The translations under genes were made by a program, and so were the position numbers. A DNA stretch of 64,000 nucleotides, taken from assembly GCA_025526935.1 (NCBI GenBank), contig JAHLKD010000007.1, positions 62,001-126,000 on the forward strand. Direction: 5' to 3'. Positions 1,669 to 43,218 of this stretch are shown here, piece by piece. The notes beneath the pieces are model-generated. The model made no database searches and was not told the DNA's origin. It saw only the letters and a list, made by a program, of their open reading frames with translations. Source of the stretch: Cladochytrium replicatum. Taxonomy: Eukaryota; Chytridiomycota; Chytridiomycetes; Cladochytriales; Cladochytriaceae. How positions within the stretch are numbered: position 1 is the first letter of the stretch; each line of letters begins with the position of its first letter.

Positions 1669-1750
1669 CGTCAGCAACAGGATTTGAACCTGTGAGCGTA
1701 GAACGCAACAGATTTCAAGTCTGTCTCCTTAACCACTCGGACATACTGAC
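1669..1750 (-). tRNA. tRNA-Ser (anticodon UGA)
   Basis: The minus strand folds as an 82-nt class II tRNA. The acceptor stem is GTCAGTA with TGCTGAC and discriminator G. The anticodon stem ACAGA/TCTGT encloses the loop CTTGAAA with anticodon TGA. A variable arm precedes the T arm with loop TTCAAAT. Length and structure fit serine tRNA, and no intron is seen. Its 5' end lies only 5 bp from the SINE-like element at 1756. Confidence 0.93.
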
Positions 1751-1755
1751 TTGGA

Positions 1756-2059
1756 GTCTCATAGTGGCTCAGTCGGTACGAATGCGACTTTTCGAAGCTA
1801 AACTCCGCGGTTCGAATCCTATAGGGGACTGGATTCGAATTTCCTACGAAATATATCTCTCGCAATATCGTGTCACGTGCAAGTACCGCGCCACACCTCC
1901 TTCGATTCGCCATTGCCTTCGCTCCTCTTTCCTACGGCTCGCACGGCTCCCCAAGTACTGAAGATTCCAAATCTTGGTTGAAGTACACGTGGGTGACATG
2001 TACTGATTAAGCATTGTCAATACATGTTATAACATTCAAAAAAAAAAAAAAAAAAAAAA
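1756..2059 (+). mobile_element. SINE-like element: tRNA-derived head, LINE-derived tail, poly(A)
   Basis: The first 75 nt (1756-1830) are tRNA-like. Box A (TGGCTCAGTCGG) and box B (GGTTCGAATCC) match the pol III consensus exactly, and the acceptor ends nearly pair, but the D, anticodon and T stems are degenerate (closest to a UCG anticodon). A body of about 90 nt follows. From about 1931 the sequence shares its start (TTTCCTACGGCTCGCACGG), an internal GGTGAYATGTAYTG block and the terminal ...TTCA(n) with the 3' UTR of LINE family A. A 22-nt poly(A) closes it. Head, body, LINE tail and A-tail is classical SINE architecture. The alternative is a decayed tRNA gene that happens to lie beside a LINE 3' fragment. 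Confidence 0.65.
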
Positions 2060-2063
2060 CTCT

Positions 2064-2398
2064 GCCACATCAGTTTCGTTGGTCACAACATTGCTTCCTT
2101 TATCTGTATTCGCTCAACCGCAATTGCTCTCCGTGCGCACTTCTCCACCCAGGAAGCTTCCACTGACGAATCAAACCCTGACTTTCTTCGCCGAGCCTCT
2201 ACTCTGCCTTTGGAGCAGCGGGAGGCTGCGGTCAGGGAAGTTGTTCACAAGAGATATGCACATATCCTCAGTTCAGTTACTGATCCTGCTATTTTCCTGT
2301 ATGTCCGTGGTCAGCTCCCCATGGATGCTCAGGAAACTGTGCTGGACAGTGCCCGCGGGATTGCGCGTCAGCCTCGCTCAACCCATCTTCGTCAATGA
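2064..2398 (+). pseudogene. LINE A ORF1, C-terminal remnant
   Basis: These codons match the last ~110 residues of the intact 465-residue ORF1 at 34427-35824, including the end ARGIARQPRSTHLRQ. The N-terminal three quarters are absent because of 5' truncation. The stop TGA overlaps the ORF2 start as ATGA, the same arrangement as in the full-length copies. Confidence 0.85.
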
Positions 2399-5300
2399 TT
2401 AGTGTTCGAGTTGGTACCTTCAATTGTCGCAATTTGAGCTTTGGAGTTCTTGATTCACTGTTTCGTTTTATGAGAGCAAATCACATTGTTTTTCTGCTCC
2501 TGACTGAAACACACCTTTTTCCTTTAGACCCGCTGCCTTCTCCAGATTTGATTTTTGACACTCGTTTTTCTCCTGGGTCATCGGGCACACGACGGGCTGG
2601 TGTGGGAGTCTTGATCAATCGCAGTCTTTGTAGAGCTTCTGATTTCCGTCTCGTTTCTAGTTATGGTGGCACCTCTCTATGGTTTACATTTCGTGGGCTT
2701 TTGGTTGGAGGGTATTATTTGCCTCCGTGTGGTATTGCTCAGGACCCCTTCCTTGAAGAGTTTATTGCTTCACTTCCTCAACATGTCCCGTCGTCTCCGT
2801 GCCCTGTTCTTTTGTTGGGCGATTTCAATGCCCGTTTTTTAGCTACTGGTGATCATTCTTCAAATCGTAGGGGTAGGTTGTTTGAGCAATTTATTTCTGC
2901 CGCTAGTTTCTCTCTAGTTAAGCACCCTTCCTGTCATAACCCCACATTTTCTTCTCGCAATGGTGACTCCATTATCGATTTGTTGTTTGTCAATCCTCTG
3001 CTTCAATGTGATCCTATTTCTTACATAGTTCATAGTCGTCTAGCCGACGGCGAGTTTATGCCTTGGGCTTCTGACCATTTTCCGGTTACAGCTGTTTTTT
3101 CTTTTGCTCCTCCCAATGCCAGCGCTCCCTCTGCTGCACCCCCCCACAAGCGCTGGGCTGCTCATCTGTTGCGTGAACCTGCTGTCTTTCAAGCAATGGA
3201 GGATGTGGGACATTTGTTTTTTGATCCCACCCTTGCTGATGTCAATGCTGCACTCAGTCCAATTTTAGAAGCTCCCGCCTTTGCCCAAATGTCTGTGGAT
3301 GTTGCACAGGGATGTATTGACTCTGCATTGGATATTATTTTGTCCTTTGTTACTTCATGTGCTGCTTGTGTCATTGGACCCCCCAGTTTAGTTCGCCGTC
3401 GCCCTGCCCTGCCATTGTTGCCGCCGCATTTAGTGGCCTTGCGACGGAGCTACTTACTTGCTCATAAGCACTATTTAGCTGTTTCTTCCTGTGATGATCC
3501 TGATCCTGGTTTAGTTGAGTATTGCCGCTTGGAGCGTGACCGGCTATCGCGTGAGCGTGTCAAAGCTTTTCGTACTTGGTCTCTTTCTCTGCGAGCTCGA
3601 GAGGCTTCTGGCGACAATATGTTTAGTTCTTCTCCTAGTTCTTTAACCGAGGTTAGCAAAGTTCTTTCCACCGCGCGTAGGTGTCATCAACGGCGCTCAG
3701 CTGCAAGTGGTTTATTGTCTGATCCTGCCTCTTTATCTCATTATCGCAATCACTTTGCCTCCGTTTATCAGACTCAGTTTGCACAATCCTCTGCCAGTGC
3801 AGAACACGTTCGTCTACATGCGCTGAATGATTCTGTGTCAGTTAGTGTTAGTGACTTTGTTTGTGCTATTCGTTCTTCCCCAAACAACTCTGCTCCTGGC
3901 CCAAACCATATTCCAGCTGAGTTATTTAAGCCGTTAGCTTCTGATGTTGCTATCCTTTTTGTTCAACTTTCAAACGCTATTTTCCGTTCAGGTTTGTCGC
4001 CCTCTGCCTGGAATTCTGGCTTGTTGTTACCTGTTTGGAAGAATAAGGGTTCCATTGGTGATATTAGTCAGTACCGCCCCATTACTTTAACCAATGTTGA
4101 TAGAAAAATCTTTGAGCGTACCCTGCTTCCTATGCTTGTAGCTCATGTTGGTAAACTTGATCCCGCCCAAGCTGGTTTCCAGGCCAATCGTTCAGGTGTT
4201 GAGTGTGTTTTTGCATTAGATGCTACCCTTCGACGGGCTTCCCGCACTGCTCTGCCTTATTGTGTTACTTTCTTAGATATTAAAGCAGCGTATGATACTG
4301 TGCATAGGCCTCTTTTGTGGGAACGTCTTCGTCAATTTCCCAGAATTCCAAACCGTTTGATCTCTGTTTTGATGAGTATGTTTGATCGTTGTTCTTCTCA
4401 GGTTGTTATAGAGAATCGTTCTTCTGATTTGTTTTCGCTTCCACGAGGTCTTTTTCAAGGTTCTGTTTTGTCTCCGTTCTTGTACTCAGTTTTCATCAAT
4501 CCTTTAGCACAGCTCCTTCGTCGTGAATCTTCTCATCTTGCTAGGTTTTCTTATAACACTCCTGTTTTCAATTCGTTGTTTTTTGCTGATGACATAGCTT
4601 TGTTTTCTGCCACCCCTGAGCAAGCCCAACGTGCATTGAAAATTTGTGAAGATTTTGCTTTAGCTTCTCATTTTGTGTTTTCACCTTCAAAGTGTGCTGT
4701 GTTATCTTCTCAACGGTTACCCACCCCCTTGAAGCTTCATGGCTCTGCCCTCCCTGTAGAGGTTTCATTTAGATACCTTGGTCACTATTTTACTATTGAA
4801 GGGTTTGATCTTGCTGCAACTATTGATCATCGCTTAGAGAAAGCTCGTGCCTCATTGTATCTTTTTGCACCTTATGTCTCGTACTTTGGTGGGTCTGCTC
4901 CTCGTGTTGCCAGGTTGTTGTTTTTGTCTTTTATTAGACCTTCACTTGAGTTTGGTTTAGCACTTATTCGGCCATCCACTGCTCAGCTTCAGGTACTCGA
5001 GCGTTTTTGTTATCATGCACTGTGTCGTCTGTTTTCGATAGCCCATACCACTTCGCGTGTTGGTTTGTTGCTGTTAGCGCAAATTCCTACTTTTGAGTTC
5101 AGGCTGAAGTACCTTCAGGCACGTATGTTTGCTCGCTGGTCTAGTGATTCCAGCCCTCTGTTACCAGCTGCTGTGTTGCAATTCTATCGGTCATCTCCAG
5201 TCGGTTATGGTTCATCTCCTTATTTTTCCGCTTGTCACAATGATCTCATTGTTCCTATGCCTGTTGTGCCCCCACTTCATCCGTTGATGTTGCATTTTCA

Positions 5301-5775
5301 GTCTTTAGCTGTTGCACATAATGGACCAATTGCAGTTTCGTTTGCCCCTGTCCGCAATTTGAAACTTCGCCACCCTTTGTTGCTACCCCCACACCAACAT
5401 CTCCCAACAGTATGTCTTCGTTTGTTCCTGCTATATCGGCTTGGCCGCCTGTTTCCAAACCCCCGACCTTATTGTAGGAACTGTCATGATGCCCCTGAAA
5501 TGTCGCGTGCCCATGTCTCTGTGTGTCTACATTTGCGTGCTAGTTTGTCTGCTAGTTTTGATCTAGGCCCACCTGATGATCCCCGCCTACCTCTTGACAT
5601 TGCAATTGATATGCTTTCACCACGGCCTTTTTATCCTTCCCCTGCTTTTTCCCAGTGGGTTCTTGTTCTTCGTGCACTTAACCGCATTTGGTCAAACTGT
5701 CTTGGTTATGAGTTAGTTTTGTCTCCAGCTCCTGATTGTATCTTGTCTGCTTTTGTTGATTTGGATATGCCTTAG
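2395..5775 (+). CDS. LINE A ORF2: APE endonuclease and reverse transcriptase
   Basis: This 1126-residue polyprotein would nick target DNA and copy the element RNA by target-primed reverse transcription. The endonuclease (residues ~5-240) shows VGTFNCRN, LLTETHLF, LLLGDFN and WASDHFPV, so the catalytic Asn, Glu, Asp and His are present. The RT (~500-800) shows FLDIKAAYD, GSVLSPFLYSVF and LFFADDIALF. Near the C terminus is a Cys/His cluster, CRNCHDAPEMSRAHVSVC, of the zinc-knuckle type seen in LINE proteins. No RNase H domain is evident. It is the only ORF2 in the window without frameshifts. The frame opens with ATG inside the ORF1 stop, which suggests termination-reinitiation. Clade placement among fungal APE-type LINEs would need a tree. 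Confidence 0.92.
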   Translation: MISVRVGTFNCRNLSFGVLDSLFRFMRANHIVFLLLTETHLFPLDPLPSPDLIFDTRFSPGSSGTRRAGVGVLINRSLCRASDFRLVSSYGGTSLWFTFRGLLVGGYYLPPCGIAQDPFLEEFIASLPQHVPSSPCPVLLLGDFNARFLATGDHSSNRRGRLFEQFISAASFSLVKHPSCHNPTFSSRNGDSIIDLLFVNPLLQCDPISYIVHSRLADGEFMPWASDHFPVTAVFSFAPPNASAPSAAPPHKRWAAHLLREPAVFQAMEDVGHLFFDPTLADVNAALSPILEAPAFAQMSVDVAQGCIDSALDIILSFVTSCAACVIGPPSLVRRRPALPLLPPHLVALRRSYLLAHKHYLAVSSCDDPDPGLVEYCRLERDRLSRERVKAFRTWSLSLRAREASGDNMFSSSPSSLTEVSKVLSTARRCHQRRSAASGLLSDPASLSHYRNHFASVYQTQFAQSSASAEHVRLHALNDSVSVSVSDFVCAIRSSPNNSAPGPNHIPAELFKPLASDVAILFVQLSNAIFRSGLSPSAWNSGLLLPVWKNKGSIGDISQYRPITLTNVDRKIFERTLLPMLVAHVGKLDPAQAGFQANRSGVECVFALDATLRRASRTALPYCVTFLDIKAAYDTVHRPLLWERLRQFPRIPNRLISVLMSMFDRCSSQVVIENRSSDLFSLPRGLFQGSVLSPFLYSVFINPLAQLLRRESSHLARFSYNTPVFNSLFFADDIALFSATPEQAQRALKICEDFALASHFVFSPSKCAVLSSQRLPTPLKLHGSALPVEVSFRYLGHYFTIEGFDLAATIDHRLEKARASLYLFAPYVSYFGGSAPRVARLLFLSFIRPSLEFGLALIRPSTAQLQVLERFCYHALCRLFSIAHTTSRVGLLLLAQIPTFEFRLKYLQARMFARWSSDSSPLLPAAVLQFYRSSPVGYGSSPYFSACHNDLIVPMPVVPPLHPLMLHFQSLAVAHNGPIAVSFAPVRNLKLRHPLLLPPHQHLPTVCLRLFLLYRLGRLFPNPRPYCRNCHDAPEMSRAHVSVCLHLRASLSASFDLGPPDDPRLPLDIAIDMLSPRPFYPSPAFSQWVLVLRALNRIWSNCLGYELVLSPAPDCILSAFVDLDMP

Positions 5776-5918
5776 TGTTTTGAAACATTTTACTTTTCCT
5801 ACGGCTCGCACGGCTCCCCATGTGCTGCCAATTTACGTGTATATTTACACTTGTATTTGGATTTTGCACCAGCGGGTGATATGTATTGGTTGGACAATAA
5901 ATACATATTATGAAGTTC

Positions 5919-5946
<28 letters not shown>

Positions 5947-5950
<4 letters not shown>

Positions 5951-7220
5951 GCCATGATCATTTGCACCTCACCTCCGGTTATCCATCGCAACTGTGAGCC
6001 TTGTACCCCTGCTGCCCTTCTTTTCACCTCTGCTCCTCTCTCCCTTAGCTCTCCATTGACCCTCTCACCTGCTTCTCTTCTGAGCAGTCTGCTGACTAGC
6101 AGGGGCTACTCCTCTGCTCATCCCTTATCTCTCTCACTTGCCTCTGCTCTGCCTTCTGACTTTGCAAGTTCCCTGACCTTCCTAAAGTGCTCTGCACTTC
6201 TATTGCGCTCCATTTCTGCTCTCTCCCCTGCTACCCTCAACCCTGATCTGCTTCCAACTCTCCCTGCTTCTCCTCCACATTTACACGTCGCTGCCACCTG
6301 TGCCCTTGGTGCCACCAACACTGCCACCAGCACTGCCCCTGGTGCCACCCACACTGCCACCACCACTCTTGACAGTTCAGCCACCTGCTCAGCCCCATCT
6401 CCAGCCTCATCACCTGCCACCAATGATTCCATGAATGAGCTTACTTGTTCGCACTTCCTCTTGGACGACCTGCCGACCTCGCATAGAAGCTTCAAATTTG
6501 TCAAAGAATGTGCCGAATCCTTCACTACTCTCCGATTTTCTGGTTTTACTCGTCGCCCAATCAGGGACCTTCGTGTGTTGCTTCGCAAAGATCTTCCGTA
6601 TACCGCTTACCATGGCATCCGCTACATCTCATTTCTCGGCTCTGATTCTGTTGAATTTCTTTGTCGTTCTTATGCTGCTGATCTGATCCGCAAACACATA
6701 CCTGGTCGAGAAATCACTGATTTGGATGTGTCCCCTCCTTCGTATTCTGACAGTTCCGACTCTCTGCAACGCTATGACTCTCTGCTCCATCGAAGTGCCA
6801 AGGCGATTGCTACTACGTCTGAGCCAGCTGTTGCATTGTTCTACCGCAATCTTGTTGATCCGTCTCATCTTTCTACGCTGTTGCATCTCGCTCGATTATA
6901 TGCCCCTTCGATGACCTCAGCTTCTGACCTTCGTTTGACCCAGTGATTTGCTCTTTGCTGTTATATTCTTCACAATGTTGAGTGTTCTTTCTTTTCTTTA
7001 TCCCTCACCTGTATTTGACACCTGAGCAGAGCCTGACGGGTAGTCACAGGAATGAGTTTTTAAGATCTCTGATTTCTATTTCGCTTTGCCCTCCGACTTG
7101 CGCGCTTCCCTATGTGCTGGTCCACGACCATCTTGTAAGGCACTTTGGGTGTTGTTTATTGTTATGCATTGTATGTGCAAATAAATAAATAATATTGTTC
7201 AAAAAAAAAAAAAAAAAAAT
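5947..7220 (+). mobile_element. LINE family B, internally deleted (ORF1 plus 3' UTR only)
   Basis: The element holds a full ORF1, then about 30 nt including ATGTTGAGTGTT that resembles the ORF2 start of family A. It then jumps straight into the family B 3' UTR (GACGGGTAG..CACAGG, CTTCCCTATGTGCTGGTCCA, AAATAAATAAATAATA) and a poly(A). Essentially all of ORF2 is missing. The same 3' UTR ends the family B copies at 7395-8545 and 41341-43140. It begins directly after the poly(A) of LINE A copy 1. Confidence 0.75.
5954..6946 (+). CDS. LINE B ORF1 protein
   Basis: This 330-residue open frame has a Ser/Thr/Ala/Pro-rich N-terminal half and a more conserved C-terminal half. The stretch LRVLLRKDLPYTAYHGIRYI followed by SFLG matches MLRALLGDEVVRGIRHISFV in the family A ORF1, so the two are homologous. 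LINE ORF1 proteins usually bind element RNA; no RRM or zinc knuckle can be seen, so RNA binding is inferred only. The start ATG is 7 nt inside the element. With ORF2 deleted, the copy could move only with enzymes supplied in trans. Confidence 0.7.
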   Translation: MIICTSPPVIHRNCEPCTPAALLFTSAPLSLSSPLTLSPASLLSSLLTSRGYSSAHPLSLSLASALPSDFASSLTFLKCSALLLRSISALSPATLNPDLLPTLPASPPHLHVAATCALGATNTATSTAPGATHTATTTLDSSATCSAPSPASSPATNDSMNELTCSHFLLDDLPTSHRSFKFVKECAESFTTLRFSGFTRRPIRDLRVLLRKDLPYTAYHGIRYISFLGSDSVEFLCRSYAADLIRKHIPGREITDLDVSPPSYSDSSDSLQRYDSLLHRSAKAIATTSEPAVALFYRNLVDPSHLSTLLHLARLYAPSMTSASDLRLTQ

Positions 7221-7394
7221 TTGGAGAATGTTCAATACATATAATGTTACTATACGAAGTTGAGCATATGGCTTTTGTTTTACGTTGGATGCATTTAATC
7301 TAATTATCCTTATACTGTAATTAGATGGCCTATTATTAAGCAGCTATTAACGGCATTAAGAGGGTTTAAGACATTAGATAATATCCAGGAAAGC

Positions 7395-8545
7395 TATGCG
7401 GGTTCTTCTCTTTGTTTGTGAACAGTTTGCCCAAGCTCGTGAGATTCTTTGCTCCATTGAAGTCAGTAATTCTCACAAGAATTCCCATTCCTGCTAATTC
7501 GCCTTTGCTTCTTCATGTTCAAACCCTGCCAGTCAAGCCTTTATTTTTATTTGGGATGCCTTTTCAGAGATATTGGATCTGATGTTTCACTGACCGTTTC
7601 CCATCAACTTACTAAAGCGCGTGCAGCTTCTTTTGCTTTGCTTCCTTTTTCAAGGATGTTTGATTCTCATTCTCTGGTTCTGGTTTGTCATTTGCTATTG
7701 TCTTTTATTTGAACTGCACTTGAATTTGGTTTATTATATGTTATTCTTCCCACTGTTGCTGTTTGCAGACCAGTTTCGGACTTTTATTCACAAAAGCATT
7801 TTTGTTGTTCTCCTGTTCCTTTCAACAATCCCTTCCTTCCCGGCTGCTAATGTCGTCGTTCCCAAACCTTCTGATGTTATTGCAAATCACTTTCACCAAT
7901 TAGCCTCATCTGCCTATGGTTCTATAGCTGCTTGCTTTGCTCCCCTTGCATCTGCCCACCCCCATGCGCTAGCAATTGCTCCTCTATGCTACCCTATTTT
8001 GTCAATCTTGAGGCTTCTGCAGTATCATCTTGGACGTTTGTTTTATCACCAGTGTTGTCACTGCCATGCAGCAACTCTCTCTAAATCTCATGTTTCGGAA
8101 TGTTTGCGTCTTGATCTATTGTTGCCTCCTGTTCCTGTTCCTGTTTTACAGCTTCCACTTGATGTTGCAATTGATAGCCTTCGCATTGTCAACCCAGGAA
8201 ATCTTGCACCGTGGTATCTTGGCTTTCGTTGTCTTCATAAGATTTGGCTTCACTGTATGAGCCTGCCATTTAGAATTTCTCCTTCAAACTCCCTCTTCTG
8301 CCCTGCATTTGTTGATCTTTAACGTCTCTTTTTTCATTATTTATTGCTCGCCTGTTTTTTGGCACCTTAGCAGTATCTGACAGGTAGCCACAGGTTTTGA
8401 GTTCACTTCTTCTGTTTTTCTTTGTTGCTTTTCCCTTACGCTGCACGCTTCCCTATGTGCTGGTCCATGACCATCTTGTAAGGCACTTTTGGTGTTGTTC
8501 TTGTATGCATTGTATGTTCAAAATAAATAAATAATACTGTTCAAA
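7395..8545 (+). mobile_element. LINE family B, 5'-truncated and internally deleted RT fragment
   Basis: The sequence follows the family B ORF2 C-terminal half found at 41341-43140, from FVCEQFAQA to the final PAFVDL stop at 8322. A gap of roughly 250 bp occurs near 7775-7815, and several frame breaks are present. The 3' UTR with CTTCCCTATGTGCTGGTCCA follows, but only a very short A-tail remains. It is older than the copy beside tRNA-Ile. Between 7221 and 7394 I see nothing assignable. Confidence 0.75.
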
Positions 8546-9307
8546 AGCTTGTCTGCTCCACCTACAATTCCACTTCTGGCTTCTCATTCCGTGTGTCATG
8601 GCGATCAACCTGACTTTTCCCCAACCTTTTTATGGGGTGGCTTGCCAGACTTTGCTTGCCCCTGAGCTGGCCTACTCCACTATATCTTCCCTCCATTTTG
8701 CAGTATCTCAGCTTATACCTGTTTGCTTAATCTGGCTTTTACCCCCTGTCCTATCTCTGCTTCTCGTGACTACATCAGATCGCAGTTGGCTTACCATGCC
8801 ACTTGCTATATTAGTTTCATTGTGGAACTTCTCTGTGGTGCTCACTTTGTTCCCTCCACTCATGAGCATTTTGTTTCTTGTGAAGTCTCCGAGTTTGATG
8901 ATTTTGATTCTGCCTATTGTAAAGCAGCCTTTCATGCCTCTTCGCGCATTGCATCTCAGGCTTTGGTTCGTGATGTAGTCTATTGCTGTTATGCTCACGC
9001 TATGGCTTATTCTTCTGATCCTCTTGTTATGCCCACGCTATGGCTCATTCTACTGATCCTCTTGTCATGTTGTATTTTGGACTTCTTATTGAGCCCAAGC
9101 TTTTATCTTCAATTCTTGATCTTGCCCTTCAGCTTAGGTCAAATAACCATTCCTTCTCCGCATTAGTTACCCACTACACTTCCCCTATGTATGGCTTCCC
9201 ATGTGCTGCCAATTTACATCTTTGTGCCAATGCATGTATTTTGGGTTGTGCAAGAGGGGGTGATTTGTATTGATTTTTAACGAGTAACTATATGTCATGA
9301 AATTCAA
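8546..9307 (+). mobile_element. Decayed element with a LINE A-like 3' tail
   Basis: The last ~140 bp share the tail layout of family A (CCCATGTGCTGCCAATTTAC, then GGGGGTGATTTGTATTG, then ATGAAATTCAAAAAA), with many changes. The part before it has no long intact frame. Two 38-bp direct repeats (8991-9028 and 9029-9066; ATGCYCACGCTATGGC...) lie in it. It may be a third LINE subfamily or an old family A copy. Confidence 0.5.
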
Positions 9308-9339
9308 AAAAGAGACAGAATTATGGAATTATGAAAAAG

Positions 9340-9760: not shown

Positions 9761-9847
9761 GAGAGTGTATTTAATCAACTGTACATCACAATCAGAACTG
9801 GTCAAACTTGAAACACTACCACATAACAGTTACGGCAGAATTTTCAT

Positions 9848-15589: not shown

Positions 15590-15788
15590 TGACTGTGTTG
15601 CTCCCCAGCCACCGTGACTGGTTTTGATTGGGCGTACGGACACCCTCCACAGCCACCACTCGCGCTGGCGTGCTCGCGCCCAAGTAACTGCCAAAAGCGG
15701 GCATATTACGTGTGTGTGGGCGTGCTGCACTTCCCTCCCACACACAAAACAAACCCAAAAGTCTCTTTCTGATCTCCGCCCGGCCCCC
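15590..15788. promoter_or_regulatory. Shared divergent promoter region (SR protein / globin 1)
   Basis: About 200 bp separate the start codons of the SR-protein gene (minus) and the globin gene (plus). Both promoters must lie in or overlap this interval; no specific site is recognised. Confidence 0.4.
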
Positions 15789-26944: not shown

Positions 26945-28036
<1,092 letters not shown>

Positions 28037-29975: not shown

Positions 29976-30000
29976 CTTACACGTGACACCATAAAACCAA

Positions 30001-30255: not shown

Positions 30256-30560
30256 AAAAGGTCCCCCTTAGGGTATCCTTGTTTCTCGAGTACAAAAACT
30301 TATATAGGCGGTTAGGCGAAATTCTTCAGGATGAGAATCGGGAAGACTGGGCAGAGACCCAAGCGACCACGATATGGAAGGGACGATAGAGTGGTTTCAA
30401 AAATGAACATTTGATTAATATACTTTCGAATGTGCTGTTTGTTGCTAAACGGTAGCAAGCTTCTTGCATAATTTTTTTGTTTCAAAAAATGAAATCAGAG
30501 TAAATTACTGTCCTCTTTTACCTCAGTTTTTTAACTTATTATAACATACGAACAATTTCT

Positions 30561-30846
30561 TTTTTTTTTTTTTGAACTTCATAATATGTATTTATTATCC
30601 AACCAATACATATCAGCCGGTGGTGCAAAATCCAAATACAAGTGTAAAAAATACACGTAAATTGGCAGCACATGGGGAGCCGTGCGAGCCGTAGGAAAAG
30701 TAAAATGTTTCAAAACACTAAGGCATATCCAAATCAACAAAAGCAGACAAGATAGAATCAGGAGCTGGAGACAAAACTAGTCATAACCAAGACAGTTTGA
30801 CCAAATGCGGTTAAGTGCAATAAGAAAAAACCTACTGGGAAAAGGT
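30561..30846 (-). mobile_element. LINE A 3' fragment (distal end of minus-strand array)
   Basis: On the minus strand this is the last ~285 bp of family A: the end of ORF2, the 3' UTR with TTTCCTACGGCTCGCACGG, and a poly(A) at the 30561 end. It has more changes than the neighbouring copies (for example an ORF2 end altered by a 2-nt loss), so it is older. Unique sequence lies beyond it. Confidence 0.85.
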
Positions 30847-30879
30847 TTTTTTTTTTTTTTTTTTTTTTGAACTTCAGCT
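30847..30879 (-). mobile_element. Ultra-short LINE tail: GCTGAAGTTC plus poly(A)
   Basis: In the minus-strand sense, the full copy ends ...TGAAGTTC-A(n). GCTGAAGTTC and a second A-run follow before the next fragment starts. Eight of the ten bases equal the element's 3' end. It looks like an insertion truncated almost to nothing, or a reduplicated tail. Confidence 0.5.
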
Positions 30880-31046
30880 TTTTTTTTTTTTTTTTTTTTT
30901 TTTGAACTTCATAATATGTATTTATTGTCCAACCAATACATATCACCCGCTGGTGCAAAATCCAAATACAAGTGTAAAAATACACGTAAATTGGCAGCAC
31001 ATGGGGAGCCGTGCGAGCCGTAGGAAAAGTAAAATGTTTCAAAACA

Positions 31047-34000: not shown

Positions 34001-34430
34001 AATCGCCCAACAAAAGAACAGGGCACGGAGACGACGGGACATGTTGAGGAAGTGAAGCAATAAACTCTTCAAGGAAGGGGTCCTGAGCAATACCACACGG
34101 AGGCAAATAATACCCTCCAACCAAAAGCCCACGAAATGTAAACCATAGAGAGGTGCCACCATAACTAGAAACGAGACGGAAATCAGAAGCTCTACAAAGA
34201 CTGCGATTGATCAAGACTCCCACACCAGCCCGTCGTGTACCCGATGACCCAGGAGAAAAACGAGTGTCAAAAATCAAATCTGGAGAAGGCAGCGGGTCTA
34301 AAGGAAAAAGGTGTGTTTCAGTCAGGAGCAGAAAAACAATGTGATTTGCGCGCATAAAACGAAACAGTGAATCAAGAACTCCAAAGCTCAAATTGCGACA
34401 ATTGAAGGTACCAACTCGAACACTAATCAT
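31047..34430 (-). pseudogene. LINE A ORF2, frameshifted
   Basis: Compared with the intact 1126-codon ORF2 at 2395, this copy is 3 nt longer. A 2-nt insertion near 32744 breaks the frame before the core RT motifs, and one extra A lies in an A-run near 32325. The endonuclease part (565 codons) is open; the RT is not read in one frame. The breaks are simple and recent. Confidence 0.88.
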
Positions 34431-35824
34431 TGACGAAGATGGGTTGAGCGAGGCTGACGCGCAATCCCGCGGGCACTGTCCAGCACAGTTTCCTGAGCAT
34501 CCATGGGGAGCTGACCACGGACATACAGGAAAATAGCAGGATCAGTAACTGAACTGAGGATATGTGCATATCTCTTGTGGACAACTTCCCTGACCGCAGC
34601 CTCCCGCTGCTCCAAAGGCAGAGTAGAGGCTCGGCGAAGAAAGTCAGGGTTTGATTCGTCAGTGGAAGCTTCCTGGGTGGAGAAGTGCGCACGGAGAGCA
34701 ATTGCGGTTGAGCGAATACAGATAAAGGAAGCAATGTTGCGACCAACGAAACTGATGTGGCGGATACCACGCACCACCTCATCGCCCAAGAGAGCCCTCA
34801 GCATGGTCCGCACAAAGCCGAGCCGCTGTCTCATGATGTCCTTGATGTACACAGTGGTCAAATCATCCACACGGGCCTGAAGATCAGCAGGTGGGGAGAC
34901 CAGCAGCGGAGAGGTCGGAGGATAGAATACGACAGGCCGAGGGCCACGAAGGCTGACATTCGAAGTGGGGTCACGACCAGCAAGGGCAGTCCTGACAGCT
35001 TCTGTACGAGATTCAGCACTCAGTGTGGGGAGACTCTCAAGCACACGGGCACGGGCATTGGCAGCAGCAGCGGCATAAGTGCGTGGACCACGAGGTCCAC
35101 GTGGGGCAGGTCGACTAGACGGGGGGCGAGGGCCAGGAGCACCAGAGTTCCCAAGATCGTCCTGAATTGGAGGATTACCATGCAGTTGTCTAGGGGGAAG
35201 GCACACAGGCGCAGCCACATCATCATGGCGGGAGACTGGGGCAACTGGAGGTGAAGGCGAAGGCAGCGGCCTCCCAAAGCGACCCACCAGATCCTCGGCC
35301 ATATCACGACAAACACTAAAAAATTCAGCAGGAGTGTCCCTCGGCAAATGTGCAAGCATAGGATCCAGCATCGCCAACGGATCAAAGGTTGCACAAACAG
35401 ATCGCATCTGAGTGAGAACGACACGGAGATCGGCCAGAGATGCAACACTCGAGGGAGCAGCCACAGCAGCAAGAACCCGGACACCCGGCAGATGTGATCG
35501 GGAACGAGAACGGGAGCGACCACGGGGCAATTCATGTTCAGCAGGTCTTTTGGCGCGTCGGTCACGTGATTGGAAGTCACGTGATTCGGCATTTTCATCC
35601 TCCCCCATATTCACATCATCGGCCCAGTGAATTGGAGAGGCAGGAGCGGAGAATGGAAGCTGTGGAGCGGAATTTTCAACAGAGGAGGCACGGGGGTGCG
35701 AACGGGCCTCAAAAATCACGGTGCCACCAGAAAGTCCATCAGGGGGCACAGCGGGGGGTGCGGCGGGCGGCGCGGCATGCGGCGCATCAGGCGGCTGCGC
35801 ATGCGGAGCGCTGGGAGGCGGCAT
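34427..35824 (-). CDS. LINE A ORF1 protein
   Basis: The 465-residue frame starts MPPPSAPHAQPPDAPHAAPP. It has a Pro/Ala-rich N terminus, an acidic segment (DDVNMGEDENAESRD), a basic RS stretch (RGRSRSRSRSHLPG) and a C-terminal half conserved with family B ORF1 (RGIRHISFVGRN...). No zinc knuckle or RRM is recognised. It presumably packages LINE RNA, by analogy with other LINE ORF1 proteins. The stop overlaps the ORF2 start (ATGA). Confidence 0.75.
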   Translation of the reverse strand: MPPPSAPHAQPPDAPHAAPPAAPPAVPPDGLSGGTVIFEARSHPRASSVENSAPQLPFSAPASPIHWADDVNMGEDENAESRDFQSRDRRAKRPAEHELPRGRSRSRSRSHLPGVRVLAAVAAPSSVASLADLRVVLTQMRSVCATFDPLAMLDPMLAHLPRDTPAEFFSVCRDMAEDLVGRFGRPLPSPSPPVAPVSRHDDVAAPVCLPPRQLHGNPPIQDDLGNSGAPGPRPPSSRPAPRGPRGPRTYAAAAANARARVLESLPTLSAESRTEAVRTALAGRDPTSNVSLRGPRPVVFYPPTSPLLVSPPADLQARVDDLTTVYIKDIMRQRLGFVRTMLRALLGDEVVRGIRHISFVGRNIASFICIRSTAIALRAHFSTQEASTDESNPDFLRRASTLPLEQREAAVREVVHKRYAHILSSVTDPAIFLYVRGQLPMDAQETVLDSARGIARQPRSTHLRQ

Positions 35825-35827
35825 TGA

Positions 35828-35829
<2 letters not shown>

Positions 35830-35876
<47 letters not shown>
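35830..35876 (-). repeat. (CT)n microsatellite forming the LINE A 5' leader
   Basis: In the element's sense, ~45 nt of pure CT dinucleotide lie between the upstream neighbour's A-run and ACATCA-ATG of ORF1. The other full-length copy has the same arrangement. Confidence 0.85.
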
Positions 35877-35882
<6 letters not shown>

Positions 35883-35901
35883 TTTTTTTTTTTTTTTGAA
35901 C
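35877..35901 (-). mobile_element. Ultra-short LINE tail: GTTC plus poly(A)
   Basis: In the minus-strand sense the next copy ends GAAGTTC-A(n), followed by GTTC and another A-run of about 20, then the CT leader of full-length copy 1. Only the last four element bases are present. Confidence 0.45.
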
Positions 35902-36063
35902 TTTTTTTTTTTTTTTTTTTGAACTTCATAATATGTATTTATTGTCCAACCAATACATATCACCCGCTGGTGCAAAATCCAAATACAAGTGTAAAAATAC
36001 ACGTAAATTGGCAGCACATGGGGAGCCGTGCGAGCCGTAGGAAAAGTAAAATGTTTCAAAACA

Positions 36064-39000
36064 CTAAGGCATATCCAAATCAACAAAAGCAGACAAGATA
36101 CAATCAGGAGCTGGAGACAAAACTAACTCATAACCAAGACAGTTTGACCAAATGCGGTTAAGTGCACGAAGAACAAGAACCCACTGGGAAAAAGCAGGGG
36201 AAGGATAAAAAGGCCGTGGTGAAAGCATATCAATTGCAATGTCAAGAGGTAGGCGGGGATCGTCAGGCGGGCCTAAATCAAAACTAGCAGACAAACTAGC
36301 ACGCAAATGTAGACACACAGAGACATGGGCACGCGACACTTCAGGGGCATCATGACAGTTCCTACAATAAGGTCGGGGGTTTGGAAACAGGCGGCCAAGC
36401 CGATATAGCAGGAACAAACGAAGACATACTGTTGGGAGATGTTGGTGTGGGGGTAGCAACAAAGGGTGGCGAAGTTTCAAATTGCGGACAGGGGCAAACG
36501 AAACTGCAATTGGTCCATTATGCGCAACAGCTAAAGACTGAAAATGCAACATCAACGGATGAAGTGGGAGCACAACAGGCATAGGAACAATGAGATCATT
36601 GTGACAAGCGGAAAAATAAGGAGATGAACCATAACCGACTGGAGATGACCGATAGAATTGCAACACAGCAGCTGGTAACAGAGGGCTGGAATCACTAGAC
36701 CAGCGAGCAAACATACGTGCCTGAAGGTACTTCAGCCTGAACTCAAAAGTAGGAATTTGCGCTAACAGCAACAAACCAACACGCGAAGTGGTATGGGCTA
36801 TCGAAAACAGACGACACAGTGCATGATAACAAAAACGCTCGAGTACCTGAAGCTGAGCAGTGGAAGGCCGAATAAGTGCTAAACCAAACTCAAGTGAAGG
36901 TCTAATAAAAGACAAAAACAACAACCTGGCAACACGAGGAGCAGACCCACCAAAGTACGAGACATAAGGTGCAAAAAGATACAATGAGGCACGAGCTTTC
37001 TCTAAGCGATGATCAATAGTTGCAGCAAGATCAAACCCTTCAATAGTAAAATAGTGACCAAGGTATCTAAATGAAACCTCTACAGGGAGGGCAGAGCCAT
37101 GAAGCTTCAAGGGGGTGGGTAACCGTTGAGAAGATAACACAGCACACTTTGAAGGTGAAAACACAAAATGAGAAGCTAAAGCAAAATCTTCACAAATTTT
37201 CAATGCACGTTGGGCTTGCTCAGGGGTGGCAGAAAACAAAGCTATGTCATCAGCAAAAAACAACGAATTGAAAACAGGAGTGTTATAAGAAAACCTAGCA
37301 AGATGAGAAGATTCACGACGAAGGAGCTGTGCTAAAGGATTGATGAAAACTGAGTACAAGAACGGAGACAAAACAGAACCTTGAAAAAGACCTCGTGGAA
37401 TCGAAAACAAATCAGAAGAACGATTCTCTATAACAACCTGAGAAGAACAACGATCAAACATACTCATCAAAACAGAGATCAAACGGTTTGGAATTCTGGG
37501 AAATTGACGAAGACGTTCCCACAAAAGAGGCCTATGCACAGTATCATACGCTGCTTTAATATCTAAGAAAGTAACACAATAAGGCAGAGCAGTGCGGGAA
37601 GCCCGTCGAAGGGTAGCATCTAATGCAAAAACACACTCAACACCTGAACGATTGGCCTGGAAACCAGCTTGGGCGGGATCAAGTTTACCAACATGAGCTA
37701 CAAGCATAGGAAGCAGGGTACGCTCAAAGATTTTTCTATCAACATTGGTTAAAGTAATGGGGCGGTACTGACTAATATCACCTATGGAGCCCTTATTCTT
37801 CCAAACAGGTAACAACAAGCCAGCATTCCAGGCAGAGGGCGACAAACCTGAACGGAAAATAGTGTTTGAAAGTTGAACAAAAGGATAGCAACATCAGAAG
37901 CTAACGGCTTAAATAACTCAGCTGGAATATGGTTTGGGCCAGGAGCAGAGTTGTTTGGGGAAGAACGAATAGCACAAACAAAGTCACTAACACTAACTGA
38001 CACAGAATCATTCAGCGCATGTAGACAAACGTGTTCTGCACTGGCAGAGGATTGTGCAAACTGAGTCTGATAAACGGAGGCAAAGTGATTGCGATAATGA
38101 GATACAGAGGCAGGATCAGACAATAAACCACTTGCAGCTGAGCGCCGTTGATGACACCTACGCGCGGTGGAAAGAACTTTGCTAACCTCGGTTAAAGAAC
38201 TAGGAGAAGAACTAAACATATTGTCGCCAGAAGCCTCTCGAGCTCGCTGAGAAAGAGACCAAGTACGAAAAGCTTTGACACGCTCACGCGATAGCCGGTC
38301 ACGCTCCAAGCAGGCAATACTCAACTAAACCAGGATCAGGATCATCACAGGAAGAAACAGCTAAATAGTGCTTATGAGCAAGTAAGTAGCTCCGTCGCAA
38401 GGCCACTAAATGCGGCGGCAACAATGGCAGGGCAGGGCGACGGCGAACTAAACTAGGGGGGTCCAATGACACAAGCAGCACATGAAGTAACAAAGGACAA
38501 AATAATATCCAATGCAGAGTCAATACATCCCTGTGCAACATCCACAGACATTTGGGCAAAGGCGGGAGCTTCTAAAATTGGACTGAGTGCAGCATTGACA
38601 TCAGCAAGGGTGGGATCAAAAAACAAATGTCCCACATCCTCCATTGCTTGAAAGACAGCAGGTTCACGCAACAGATGAGCAGCCCAGCGCTTGTGGGGGG
38701 GTGCAGCAGAGGGAGCGCTGGCATTGGGAGGAGCAAAAGAAAAAACAGCTGTAACCGGAAAATGGTCAGAAGCCCAAGGCATAAACTCGCCGTCGGCTAG
38801 ACGACTATGAACTATGTAAGAAATAGGATCACATTGAAGCAGAGGATTGACAAACAACAAATCGATAATGGAGTCACCATTGCGAGAAGAAAATGTGGGG
38901 TTATGACAGGAAGGGTGCTTAACTAGAGAGAAACTAGCGGCAGAAATAAATTGCTCAAACAACCTACCCCTACGATTTGAAGAATGATCACCAGTAGCTA

Positions 39001-39445
39001 AAAAACGGGCATTGAAATCGCCCAACAAAAGAACAGGGCACGGAGACGACGGGACATGTTGAGGAAGTGAAGCAATAAACTCTTCAAGGAAGGGGTCCTG
39101 AGCAATACCACATGGAGGCAAATAATACCCTCCAACCAAAAGCCCACGAAATGTAAACCATAGAGAGGTGCCACCATAACTAGAAACGAGACGGAAATCA
39201 GAAGCTCTACAAAGACTGCGATTGATCAAGACTCCCACACCAGCCCGTCGTGTACCCGATGACCCAGGAGAAAAACGAGTGTCAAAAATCAAATCTGGAG
39301 AAGGCAGCGGGTCTAAAGGAAAAAGGTGTGTTTCAGTCAGGAGCAGAAAAACAATGTGATTTGCGCGCATAAAACGAAACAGTGAATCAAGAACTCCAAA
39401 GCTCAAATTGCGACAATTGAAGGTACCAACTCGAACACTAATCAT
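36064..39445 (-). pseudogene. LINE A ORF2, frameshifted
   Basis: Against the intact ORF2 this copy has one extra base near 38454 (A before a G-run), one near 38311 (an added A or G) and one lost A near 37878, net +1. The endonuclease is open for 330 codons and the RT half for 593 codons, in different frames. The RT motif FFADD is unchanged. Confidence 0.88.
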
Positions 39446-40839
39446 TGACGAAGATGGGTTGAGCGAGGCTGACGCGCAATCCCGCGGGCACTGTCCAGCA
39501 CAGTTTCCTGAGCATCCATGGGGAGCTGACCACGGACATACAGGAAAATAGCAGGATCAGTAACTGAACTGAGGATATGTGCATATCTCTTGTGGACAAC
39601 TTCCCTGACCGCAGCCTCCCGCTGCTCCAAAGGCAGAGTAGAGGCTCGGCGAAGAAAGTCAGGGTTTGATTCGTCAGTGGAAGCTTCCTGGGTGGAGAAG
39701 TGCGCACGGAGAGCAATTGCGGTTGAGCGAATACAGATAAAGGAAGCAATGTTGCGACCAACGAAACTGATGTGGCAGATACCACGCACCACCTCATCGC
39801 CCAAGAGAGCCCTCAGCATGGTCCGCACAAAGCCGAGCCGCTGTCTCATGATGTCCTTGATGTACACAGTGGTCAAATCATCCACACGGGCCTGAAGATC
39901 AGCAGGTGGGGAGACCAGCAGCGGAGAGGTCGGAGGATAGAATACGACAGGCCGAGGGCCACGAAGGCTGACATTCGAAGTGGGGTCACGACCAGCAAGG
40001 GCAGTCCTGACAGCTTCTGTACGAGATTCAGCACTCAGTGTGGGGAGACTCTCAAGCACACGGGCACGGGCATTGGCAGCAGCAGCGGCATAAGTGCGTG
40101 GACCACGAGGTCCACGTGGGGCAGGTCGACTAGACGGGGGGCGAGGGCCAGGAGCACCAGAGTTCCCAAGATCGTCCTGAATTGGAGGATTACCATGCAG
40201 TTGTCTAGGGGGAAGGCACACAGGCGCAGCCACATCATCATGGCGGGAGACTGGGGCAACTGGAGGTGAAGGCGAAGGCAGCGGCCTCCCAAAGCGACCC
40301 ACCAGATCCTCGGCCATATCACGACAAACACTAAAAAATTCAGCAGGAGTGTCCCTCGGCAAATGTGCAAGCATAGGATCCAGCATCGCCAACGGATCAA
40401 AGGTTGCACAAACAGATCGCATCTGAGTGAGAACGACACGGAGATCGGCCAGAGATGCAACACTCGAGGGAGCAGCCACAGCAGCAAGAACCCGGACACC
40501 CGGCAGATGTGATCGGGAACGAGAACGGGAGCGACCACGGGGCAATTCATGTTCAGCAGGTCTTTTGGCGCGTCGGTCACGTGATTGGAAGTCACGTGAT
40601 TCGGCATTTTCATCCTCCCCCATATTCACATCATCGGCCCAGTGAATTGGAGAGGCAGGAGCGGAGAATGGAAGCTGTGGAGCGGAATTTTCAACAGAGG
40701 AGGCACGGGGGTGCGAACGGGCCTCAAAAATCACGGTGCCACCAGAAAGTCCATCAGGGGGCACAGCGGGGGGTGCGGCGGGCGGCGCGGCATGCGGCGC
40801 ATCAGGCGGCTGCGCATGCGGAGCGCTGGGAGGCGGCAT
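39442..40839 (-). CDS. LINE A ORF1 protein
   Basis: A 465-residue frame almost identical to the ORF1 at 34427-35824; the only difference I noticed is RGICHISF for RGIRHISF. It has the same Pro/Ala N terminus, RS stretch and ATGA overlap with ORF2. Its conservation in two copies with broken ORF2 fits recent insertion rather than selection. Confidence 0.75.
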   Translation of the reverse strand: MPPPSAPHAQPPDAPHAAPPAAPPAVPPDGLSGGTVIFEARSHPRASSVENSAPQLPFSAPASPIHWADDVNMGEDENAESRDFQSRDRRAKRPAEHELPRGRSRSRSRSHLPGVRVLAAVAAPSSVASLADLRVVLTQMRSVCATFDPLAMLDPMLAHLPRDTPAEFFSVCRDMAEDLVGRFGRPLPSPSPPVAPVSRHDDVAAPVCLPPRQLHGNPPIQDDLGNSGAPGPRPPSSRPAPRGPRGPRTYAAAAANARARVLESLPTLSAESRTEAVRTALAGRDPTSNVSLRGPRPVVFYPPTSPLLVSPPADLQARVDDLTTVYIKDIMRQRLGFVRTMLRALLGDEVVRGICHISFVGRNIASFICIRSTAIALRAHFSTQEASTDESNPDFLRRASTLPLEQREAAVREVVHKRYAHILSSVTDPAIFLYVRGQLPMDAQETVLDSARGIARQPRSTHLRQ

Positions 40840-40846
40840 TGATTTT

Positions 40847-40854
<8 letters not shown>

Positions 40855-40915
<61 letters not shown>

Positions 40916-40916
40916 G
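40855..40916 (-). repeat. (CT)n/(CA)n leader of LINE A copy 2
   Basis: In the element's sense the leader reads GGACCTACC, then ~45 nt of CT with one interruption, then CACACACACA-AAAATCA before the ORF1 ATG. The added CA run shows that the leader has diverged between copies by microsatellite change. Confidence 0.8.
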
Positions 40917-40920
40917 GTCC

Positions 40921-41340
40921 TTTTTTTTTTTTTTTTGAACTTCATAATATGTATTTATTGTCCAACCAATACATATCACCCGCTGGTGCAAAATCCAAAT
41001 ACAAGTGTAAAAATACACGTAAATTGGCAGCACATGGGGAGCCGTGCGAGCCGTAGGAAAAGTAAAATGTTTCAAAACACTAAGGCATATCCAAATCAAC
41101 AAAAGCAGACAAGATACAATCAGGAGCTGGAGACAAAACTAACTCATAACCAAGACAGTTTGACCAAATGCGGTTAAGTGCACGAAGAACAAGAACCCAC
41201 TGGGAAAAGGCAGGGGAAGGATAAAAAGGCCGTGGTGAAAGCATATCAATTGCAATGTCAAGAGGTAGGCGGGGATCGTCAGGCGGGCCTAAATCAAAAC
41301 TAGCAGACAAACTAGCACGCAAATGTAGACACACAGAGAC
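40921..41340 (-). mobile_element. LINE A 3' fragment, 5'-truncated
   Basis: About 420 bp: the last 84 ORF2 codons, 3' UTR and poly(A). The 5' end abuts the poly(A) of the family B copy. The sequence is nearly identical to the full copies, so truncation was probably at insertion. Confidence 0.88.
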
Positions 41341-43140
41341 ATTTTTTTTTATTTTTTTTTTTTTTTAACAATATTATTATTTATTTTGCACATACAATGC
41401 ATAACAAAAAACAACACCCAAAGTGCCTTACAAGATGGTCATGGACCAGCACATAGGGAAGCGCGCGCAGCATAAGGAAAACCAACAAAGCAAAACAGAG
41501 AATGTAAACTCAAACCTGTGGCTACCCGTCAGATACTGCTAAGGTGCCAAAAAAACAGGTGAGTAATAAATAATGAGAAAAGAAAACGTTAAAGATCCAC
41601 AAATGCAGGGCCAAAGAGGGAGTCTGGAGGAGAAACTTCTAATGGCAGACCCATACAGTGAAGCCAAATCTTATGGAGACAACGAAAAACTAGATACCAC
41701 GGTGCAAGATTCACTGGGTTGACAATGCGAAGTGGACGAAGGCCATCAATTGCAACGTCAAGCGGAAGTTGTAAAACAGGAACAGGAACAGGAGGCAACA
41801 ATAGGTCAAGACGCAAACATTCTGAAACATGAGATCTAGAGAGAGTTGCAGTGCGGCAGTGACAACACTGCTTGCGGGGGTGATAAAACAAACGTCCAAG
41901 GCGATACTGCAGAAGCCTCAAGATTGACGAAATAGGGAAGCATGGAGGAGCAATTGCTAGCGCATGAGGGTGTGCAGATGCAAGGGGAGCAAAGCTAGCA
42001 GCTATAGAACCATAGGCAGATGAGGCTACTTGGTGAAAGTGATTTGCGATAACATCAGAAGGTTTGGGAACTACAACATTTGCAGCCAGGAAGAGGAAGT
42101 GATTGTTGAAAGGGACAGGAGAACAACGAAAGTGCTTTCCCTGGTGAAGAAAGAATGACAACATAGAGTGAACCATATCAGGGGCATCATCATCCAGCCA
42201 ACGTTGAAACATCTGAAACTGCAGATATTGAAGCCGAAACTGAAGGTCAGGAAACTTAAAAAACAGTAAAACCCCAGCAATTGAAGTGGAAAATGAAAGG
42301 CGAAGAAATCGACACAAACATTGGTGAATAAAAGTCCGAACTGGTTTGCAAACAGCAACAGAGGGAAGAATAAAATATAAACCAAATTCAAGCGTAGGTC
42401 GAATAAAAGACAAAAACAAATGACGAACCACAACCAGAGAATGAGAACCAAACATCCTTGAAAAAGAAAGCAAAGCAAAAGAAGCTGCGCGCGCTTTGGC
42501 AAGTCGATGGGAAATAGTCAGTGAAACATCAAATCCAGTATCTCCAAAAAAGCAACCCAGATAACGAAATGAAGGCTTGACAGGCAGAGGTTGACCATGA
42601 AGAAGCAAAGGCGAATGAGCAGGAATAGGAATTTTTGTGAGAATCACAGACTTCAAAGGAGCAAAAGAAAAACCACGAGCTTGGGCAAACTGGTCACAAA
42701 CAGAGAGAAGAACCTGCATAGCATCCAAAGTAATTGCAAACAAGGCCAAATCATCTGCAAATAAAAAAGAATTATATCGTGGTTTGGCAGGATGAAAGAG
42801 TGTTATAGGTGGGGCAAATGGTCGGAGGAGCCCAGGTAGAGGATCAAGAAAAGTGATATAGAGAAGTGGACTGAGAACAGAACCTTGAAACAAACCTCTA
42901 AACAAATCAAAAGCATCTGAAAAACAATTTGCAACAACCACTCTGGAAGAACAAAAATCAAACAGAGACTTCAAAACAAAAACAAATGGCAACGGTACTC
43001 CCCTAGAAAGAAGCTCAGCCCAAAGAATTGCACGATTTGTGGTGTCATAAGCTGCTTGAATATCTAAAAAACCAGCAACCCAAGGAACCTTGGCATTAGA
43101 CGCACGGGAGATACATGCCTGAAGACCAAAAACATGACCA
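41341..43140 (-). mobile_element. LINE family B, 5'-truncated copy abutting tRNA-Ile
   Basis: The copy contains the C-terminal half of ORF2, the family B 3' UTR (CTTCCCTATGTGCTGGTCCA in sense) and a poly(A) with one interruption. The 5' truncation point lies at or within about 5 bp of the mature tRNA-Ile 5' end at 43145. It is the best preserved family B copy here. Confidence 0.88.
41589..43140 (-). pseudogene. LINE B ORF2, C-terminal half (RT), truncated
   Basis: The frame is open from the truncation point to a stop at 41589 (about 515 codons). It includes FLDIQAAYDTTNR, GSVLSPLLYITF and LFADDLALF of the RT, and a C-terminal Cys/His cluster CCHCRTATLSRSHVSEC. The endonuclease and RT start are missing. 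It is clearly homologous to family A ORF2 but distinct in sequence, so the two families are separate lineages. Confidence 0.85.
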
Positions 43141-43144
43141 GCGA

Positions 43145-43218
43145 GCTCTATTAGCTCAGCTGGTTAGAGCGTGGTGCTAATAACGCCAAGGTCACAGGTT
43201 CGATCCCTGTATGGAGCA
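43145..43218 (+). tRNA. tRNA-Ile (anticodon AAU)
   Basis: A 74-nt cloverleaf: acceptor GCTCTAT/ATGGAGC with discriminator A, D arm GCTC...GAGC, anticodon stem TGGTG/CGCCA around loop CTAATAA (anticodon AAT), and T arm ACAGG-TTCGATC-CCTGT. Boxes A and B are canonical. No intron. LINE B ends about 4 bp upstream. Confidence 0.96.

Follow-up and report, generated by a model that had tools for sequence, protein, structure and literature searches.

What places two series of retroelements, each pointing away from a tRNA gene and beginning almost at its 5′ end, in the genome of a fungus? The question is raised by a stretch of 64,000 nucleotides of Cladochytrium replicatum DNA (the window; contig C7, positions 62001-126000), in which a tRNA-Ser and a tRNA-Ile gene each anchor an array of elements without long terminal repeats (non-LTR elements). 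ARAGORN called both genes at the positions given in an earlier note on this DNA, and on re-reading, both arrays proved to be head-to-tail series whose elements turn their 5′ ends towards that of the tRNA gene, as that note described. The arrays contain two long interspersed nuclear elements (LINE A and LINE B), a shorter element with only the first open reading frame (half-LINE) and a short interspersed nuclear element (SINE). We surveyed samples from the whole assembly (50.5 Mb in 198 contigs; C-numbers denote contigs and L-numbers retrieved loci), starting both from tRNA genes and from element copies. LINE A, LINE B, the half-LINE and the SINE very probably insert at the start of RNA polymerase III (Pol III) units that have internal A and B boxes, with arrays growing outward.

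With the Rfam tRNA model, 62 of 2278 first-look candidates were scored as genes, so the sample is biased towards high scorers; their order followed the tRNA score, without regard to neighbouring sequence. We took the first 60 and examined 200 bp of upstream and 150 bp of downstream sequence for each, leaving out the last two by score. LINE A, LINE B, half-LINE or SINE sequence lay within 200 bp upstream of 52 of the 60 genes, and none lay within 150 bp downstream of any of them. Elements started within 15 bp of 38 of the 60 genes, within 20 bp of 41 and within 40 bp of 45; the median start distance for the 52 element-bearing genes was 10 bp, with 42 of them at 0-21 bp. Truncation at the 5′ end made little difference, as truncated copies began at distances similar to those of full-length copies. 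At all 52 genes the matches were oriented away from the tRNA, and one gene additionally had a 36-base match in the opposite direction. A protein-level search of the flanks with LINE A and LINE B queries found a match to the second open reading frame (ORF2) upstream of three of the remaining eight genes (E < 1e-3), and no LINE protein match at that threshold in the 60 downstream flanks (best 0.007).

To set these counts against chance we used pattern matches in the whole assembly (up to 3 mismatches, a 31-base pattern for the SINE 5′ end; reversed-pattern controls gave 0). There were 109 SINE 5′ ends, 270 LINE A 3′ ends, 172 starts of LINE A ORF1 and 347 LINE B-type 3′ ends, a pattern that the half-LINE also fits. 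Placing 726 counted sites (109 + 270 + 347) randomly in 50.5 Mb predicts about 0.009 of 60 tRNA genes with a divergent start within 20 bp, compared to the 41 observed.

The survey from the element side gave the same picture. We read 79 of the 109 SINE copies (the other 30 comprise 9 unlisted copies and 21 that were listed only). A tRNA gene called by ARAGORN adjoined 33 of the 79, and all 33 pairs were divergent, with a spacing of 6-14 bp in 31 and of 23 and 31 bp in the other two. The isotypes were Pro, Ala, Val, Ser, Phe, Gln, Arg, Asp, Lys, Gly, Thr, Glu, Leu, Asn, His, Met, Ile and Cys. A further 38 SINE copies came after the poly(A) of another element (35 assigned by script, 3 by eye); a called tRNA lay in the flank of 11 of the 35 script-assigned copies, divergent each time. 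Three copies adjoined tRNA-like sequence, those on C12 and C61 belonging to a repeat with a degenerate tRNA-like head. By coordinates (100 listed SINEs against 62 tRNA genes), 17 of 18 SINE-tRNA pairs within 6 kb were divergent, and the SINE of the single non-divergent pair sits 8 bp from another tRNA gene, to which it is divergent.

LINE A behaved similarly. Twenty of its 172 ORF1 starts were read by eye: 6 adjoined a tRNA gene (4 called, 2 by eye), 9 came after poly(A), 2 after poly(A) and a tRNA fragment, and 3 had other neighbours. From the 3′ ends, 30 of 270 loci were retrieved, 14 of which ran off the retrieved piece. Of the 16 informative copies, one adjoined a called tRNA, three adjoined tRNA-like heads recognised by eye, and nine came after the 3′ end of an element (7 assigned by script, 2 by eye). 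Elements ran head to tail away from the tRNA in 24 of 25 loci with longer flanks, L064 being the exception; as these loci are the window and 24 others picked for holding an element, they show order and orientation, not frequency. The earlier note had proposed repeated insertion just upstream of tRNA genes, and this is supported by a strong one-sided, one-orientation enrichment seen from both the tRNA and the element side. On the samples from across the assembly, copies lying far from tRNA genes in random orientation were not the pattern.

What is targeted? No shared motif was obvious by eye in the spacers between tRNA genes and elements. The repeat with the degenerate tRNA-like head (L040, L041, L047, L162, L015, L204-L223) gave 20 matches to a 26-base pattern. 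Its heads were recognised by mutual similarity and by motifs seen by eye, and are counted apart from the tRNA genes because ARAGORN and Rfam make no call at threshold (L047, 22.5; L040, 20.6; L015, 20.1 bits, against 29; no Rfam match for L041 and L162). At 18 of the 20 heads LINE A, LINE B, half-LINE or SINE sequence started 2-15 bp upstream, one further head had an element at the protein level, and none of the 20 had an element match in the opposite direction. At seven heads the LINE B breakpoints lie within 8 bases of each other; these are probably one insertion that was copied, so that independent events at tRNA-like heads number about a dozen. With its tRNA-like head and repetitive body, the repeat is perhaps a second SINE.

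In contrast, no element lay upstream of six 5S genes (235 bases for one gene, 1.5 kb for the others) or of two U6 genes (1.5 kb). Two of the eight 5S matches were not given as loci, and a third U6 match (L199), below the cut-off and chimeric, was not counted. Pol III units that have internal A and B boxes carry elements and 5S and U6 do not, in what is a small sample of the latter. Five of the eight 5S matches (L191-L195, on C53, C25, C142, C31 and C167) are no more than about 2.3 kb from the end of a contig, and the six retrieved 5S genes have a conserved upstream stretch in common, starting GAAAG when read away from the gene, which is perhaps a promoter element.

The SINE itself is probably used in the same way as the tRNA genes. 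On C36 a LINE A lies between a SINE and a tRNA-Ala gene, with its 5′ end towards the SINE and its poly(A) side facing tRNA-Ala, an arrangement that fits the SINE as the target. LINE A and SINE stand head to head, about 10 bp apart, at L200 (C36), the C18/C24 pair, C127:110945 and C80:95352.

The element families themselves were characterized from their sequences. LINE A ORF2 encodes an apurinic/apyrimidinic endonuclease (APE)-type endonuclease and a reverse transcriptase (RT) in a single frame (Pfam PF03372/PF14529 and PF00078), with a CCHC-like motif at the C-terminus; Pfam (E 0.01) found no RNase H family in this ORF2. The solved entries closest to it are those of LINE-1 ORF2, together with one named RNA-directed DNA polymerase. 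LINE A ORF1 matched no Pfam family, and none of the 8000 candidates scored in a protein search reached E 1e-3. In an RT tree of 72 rows, the RT of LINE A pairs with that of LINE B as its sister (support 100/99), their neighbours are the metagenome proteins P0001 and P0002, and a wider group (support 95/92) takes in the two named Mucor LINEs that were included. The LINEs have poly(A) tails and 5′ truncation occurs; we class LINE A and LINE B by sequence as L1-like non-LTR retrotransposons, the tree having no reference clades. The half-LINE has a 330-amino-acid ORF1-like frame and a LINE B-like 3′ untranslated region (UTR), with several near-full copies elsewhere in the assembly. The SINE tail has a 24-base exact match to LINE A, and its head carries what we take to be A- and B-box-like motifs, recognised against a consensus. 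Its tRNA-like head, LINE-like tail and poly(A) mark it as tRNA-derived. The true 5′ end is probably the GAC that precedes CTCATAG, as GAC or GGAC is kept at the start of 36 of the 79 copies.

How might such arrays arise? On the samples, insertions lie mostly within about 15 bp upstream, in a single orientation, at many isotypes and at degenerate heads, and not downstream. We suggest that the LINE protein would be recruited by the assembled Pol III initiation complex, with TFIIIC on the boxes and TFIIIB at the start site, and that the APE endonuclease would nick next to this complex. The poly(A) tail would then prime reverse transcription and the element 5′ end would be joined on the tRNA side, so that each new copy would enter between the tRNA and the older copies, and arrays would lengthen away from the tRNA as head-to-tail series in which unique DNA between copies is scarce or absent. 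In trans, the LINE machinery would also serve the SINE and the half-LINE.

Some observations weigh against this model. Five of the 60 tRNA genes have no recognised upstream element. The tRNA-like neighbour of the SINE at C44:173394 is recognised by a B-box-like motif only, unsupported by Rfam, and 5 of the 79 SINE copies stand head to head with LINE A (by eye), two of them apparently being one duplicated locus. The three other LINE A ORF1 starts have no recognised neighbour (C5:758386), an antisense LINE A (C6:347576) or a SINE without poly(A) (C62:143296). Two of the 16 informative LINE A 3′-end copies (L064, L066) adjoin no tRNA, tRNA-like head or element, and another (L046) adjoins an inverted LINE A piece. 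The C36 arrangement could be an opposite-orientation insertion at tRNA-Ala. Target-site duplications, sought at 55 poly(A) junctions (82 tRNA loci) as the longest common substring with the local tRNA and spacer, were rare and in no excess over mismatched pairings. Finally, the age order in SINE-SINE arrays, where the proximal copy is closer to the window SINE in 6 cases, further in 2 and tied in 3, is suggestive and not significant, and LINE-LINE arrays (L023, L062) have no clear order.

The junctions do contain some support for outward growth. Matches of at least 9 bases occurred at 6 of the 55. In five of these the start of the SINE matches itself, and 20 rounds of mismatched pairing yielded 0-6 such matches, so that only the 21-base match at L189 stands out: a tRNA-Thr 5′ fragment lying between a poly(A) and the next element. 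One more case was seen by eye at C4:7614. Outward growth is also supported by the copy nearest the tRNA, which begins at much the same distance from the gene regardless of the elements further out.

Could the arrays instead have grown chiefly by template jumping or from multimeric transcripts, and not by separate insertions? Runs of SINEs with common private variants (for example on C43), the joining of U6 to LINE A at L199, which shows template switching, and the inverted LINE A pieces at L046 and on C6 would all fit. However, many arrays mix families and truncation points, for which separate events are needed, and template jumping leaves the tRNA anchor unexplained, so we consider it improbable as the chief process. 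The chimera at L199 (G000:C66, ~265138-265226) is a U6 snRNA-like sequence fused to a 5′-truncated LINE A within a tRNA-Lys array, and has the appearance of a U6-LINE chimera formed by template switching. At L046 and C6:347576 an antisense LINE A piece precedes LINE A, and these pieces resemble L1 twin-priming inversions.

A second alternative is that insertion is random and that copies survive only beside tRNA genes, as a safe haven. In compact genomes tRNA genes have indeed been discussed as potentially safe integration sites (PMC5006619; this and the other papers are cited for excerpts). Selection is, however, unlikely to fix a single orientation and a one-sided window of ~15 bp. Moreover, the first-rank SINEs beside tRNA genes are 99-100% identical to the window SINE and too young for strong sorting, with the proviso that most first-rank loci were selected by an exact match to the first 31 bases, which leans to young copies. 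Copies in unique DNA are also few (none of 79 SINEs, with one weak case, and 2 of 16 LINE A 3′-end copies). We regard this alternative as very unlikely.

Equally unlikely is duplication of tRNA genes together with their arrays, by which the associations would be copies of a few ancestral loci. Some observations fit such copying: the first 60 upstream bases are identical in two pairs among the 60 tRNA loci, the close LINE B breakpoints at 7 of the 20 tRNA-like heads point the same way, and private variants are common to some SINE arrays, such as that on C43. Nevertheless, the 60 tRNA genes have 58 distinct upstream contexts, spread over ten isotypes and involving different elements and truncation points. 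Duplication is therefore refuted as the main cause and accounts for a minority of cases. Targeting of one tRNA sequence or a microsatellite, as by elements with a restriction-like endonuclease, has least to recommend it: NeSL-1_TV and certain LIN families of planarians each use a single type of tRNA (PMC4640811), but the endonuclease here is APE-type and the insertions lie outside the tRNA body, at many isotypes and with spacers that have no obvious common motif by eye.

We therefore favour insertion at the start of Pol III units, and the window can be read in that light (Table 1). The earlier note had placed the SINE 5 bp from tRNA-Ser and LINE B about 4 bp from tRNA-Ile. Both gaps proved longer: the SINE start, taken from other copies, gives 7 bp, and the LINE B end, judged from the longer copies L063, L016 and L068, gives about 10 bp. 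The note had also assigned 5947-7219 to LINE B; it is instead a separate family of ~1.27 kb, the half-LINE, with an ORF1-like frame alone and a LINE B-like 3′ end.

Table 1. Features of the two tRNA-anchored arrays, in window coordinates
Feature	Position	Strand	Basis
tRNA-Ser(TGA), anchor of array 1	1669..1750	-	ARAGORN
Spacer of 7 bp, tRNA-Ser 5′ end to SINE	1751..1757	.	Sequence; SINE start taken from other copies
SINE, 302 bp: tRNA-like head, LINE A-like tail, poly(A)	1758..2059	+	31-base 5′ pattern; 24-base tail match
LINE A, 5′-truncated, poly(A)	2061..5946	+	Sequence and comparison of copies
LINE A ORF2, 1126 amino acids	2395..5775	+	Pfam PF00078, PF14529, PF03372; CCHC motif pattern
Half-LINE (ORF1-only element), LINE B-like 3′ UTR	5947..7219	+	Comparison with other copies
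Half-LINE ORF1-like frame, 330 amino acids	5954..6946	+	Reading frame
Diverged LINE B fragment, 87-88% to LINE B	7393..8546	+	Alignment
Relic resembling LINE A 3′ end	9190..9312	+	By eye only, no tool alignment
LINE A fragment, distal end of array 2	30556..30855	-	Repeat comparison within window
LINE A, full or nearly full length, (CT)n 5′ UTR	30879..35877	-	Sequence and repeat comparison
LINE A, full length, (CT)n 5′ UTR	35878..40920	-	Sequence and repeat comparison
LINE A ORF1, 465 amino acids, no Pfam family, no CCHC	39442..40839	-	Pfam; motif pattern
LINE A fragment, 5′-truncated	40921..41341	-	Sequence and repeat comparison
LINE B, 5′-truncated, RT frame 41589-42992	41342..43134	-	Pfam; copy comparison
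Spacer of ~10 bp, LINE B to tRNA-Ile	43135..43144	.	Comparison with L063, L016, L068
tRNA-Ile(AAT), anchor of array 2	43145..43219	+	ARAGORN

The LINE A tails at 30840-30905 and 35878-35930 are double T runs interrupted by GAAC (in the sense direction, poly(A)-GTTC-poly(A)), which suggests slippage or re-priming at the 3′ end. Outside the arrays, a 77-bp unit forms a tandem pair at 55404-55557 (99% identical). The protein families in the window gave no indication of the host. For a 253-amino-acid piece of RPB2, the first named matches were Linderina (68% over 98% of the query), Hortaea (65% over 98%) and Dinochytrium (82% over 74%), which points to a fungal and probably chytrid-like host. In the assembly, two RPB2 loci, on C39 and C18 (L129, L130), have near-equal scores, and part of the genome may be present twice, with both haplotypes partly in the assembly.

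How does this compare with known systems? The closest parallels come from social amoebae, where TRE5 inserts 40-54 bp upstream of tRNA genes, TRE3 downstream, NLTR-A at 2-6 bp and NLTR-B at 39-64 bp (PMC5911963, PMC5006619). TRE5 of Dictyostelium discoideum is likewise a non-LTR element with two ORFs, its ORF2 combining APE, RT and a zinc finger, and it inserts upstream of tRNA genes in the opposite transcriptional orientation (PMC5911963). The elements described here differ in lying closer (median 10 bp), in having a fungal host and in the participation of a SINE and a half-LINE. Extrachromosomal 5S genes serve as an additional target of TRE5-A (PMC5911963), whereas we found no insertion at the six 5S genes. 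The position of NLTR-A in D. purpureum overlaps with ours, which is wider (42 of 52 at 0-21 bp), and NLTR-A carries an RNase H domain (PMC5006619) of a kind that Pfam did not find in LINE A ORF2. By description, the present system appears to work like TRE5 and NLTR-A; we set it beside them and claim membership in neither.

Among fungi, Ty3 of Saccharomyces cerevisiae and Tyl6 of Yarrowia insert at the Pol III start site or about 5 bp away from it, but these are LTR retrotransposons, as are the yeast elements listed in the same review, and use a different insertion chemistry; Ty3 has an integrase and inserts in both orientations (PMC5911963). Ty3-like LTR elements of Rhizopus frequently co-localise with tRNA genes (PMC2699053). 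The fungal LINEs Zorro (Candida) and Ylli (Yarrowia) have poly(A), Ylli being APE-type and Zorro3 belonging to the L1 superfamily; Zorro3, in contrast to our elements, targets poly(A) tracts, and the excerpts report no tRNA targeting for Zorro or Ylli (PMC7175516, PMC5014426). Non-LTR elements at tRNA genes are also known in NeSL-1_TV (tRNA-Pro), LIN15_SM (tRNA-Arg) and LIN25_SM (tRNA-Glu), which are NeSL-related and use one tRNA type each (PMC4640811). LINEs of the R2/NeSL type have a restriction-like endonuclease and one sequence target, unlike the APE-type elements described here with their many isotypes and spacers. We found no fungal tRNA-targeting LINE or SINE in the excerpted open literature, a scope that leaves out most subscription papers and all preprints.

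We also lean, with less assurance, towards a broader reading. Here, nearly every tRNA gene of an early-diverging fungus would have its own outward array, and what is recognised would be the type-2 Pol III complex rather than a DNA sequence or the complexes on 5S and U6. The SINE would be both passenger and target: since, having A and B boxes, it is a Pol III unit in its own right, the system would create its own new landing sites.

What would this mean for the biology of such elements? The best-known cases of non-LTR elements that target tRNA genes without being bound to one tRNA sequence are those of social amoebae. A fungal case comprising LINEs, a half-LINE and a SINE, near the positions used by Ty3 and NLTR-A, would be a further, perhaps independent, origin of targeting to the Pol III start site, and would let one ask whether a SINE inherits the target choice of its LINE partner. 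That tRNA genes are used, while the small number of 5S and U6 genes surveyed were not, is relevant to whether recruitment is by TFIIIC or by TFIIIB. The tandem arrays beside most of the sampled tRNA genes may record the order in which the elements were inserted.

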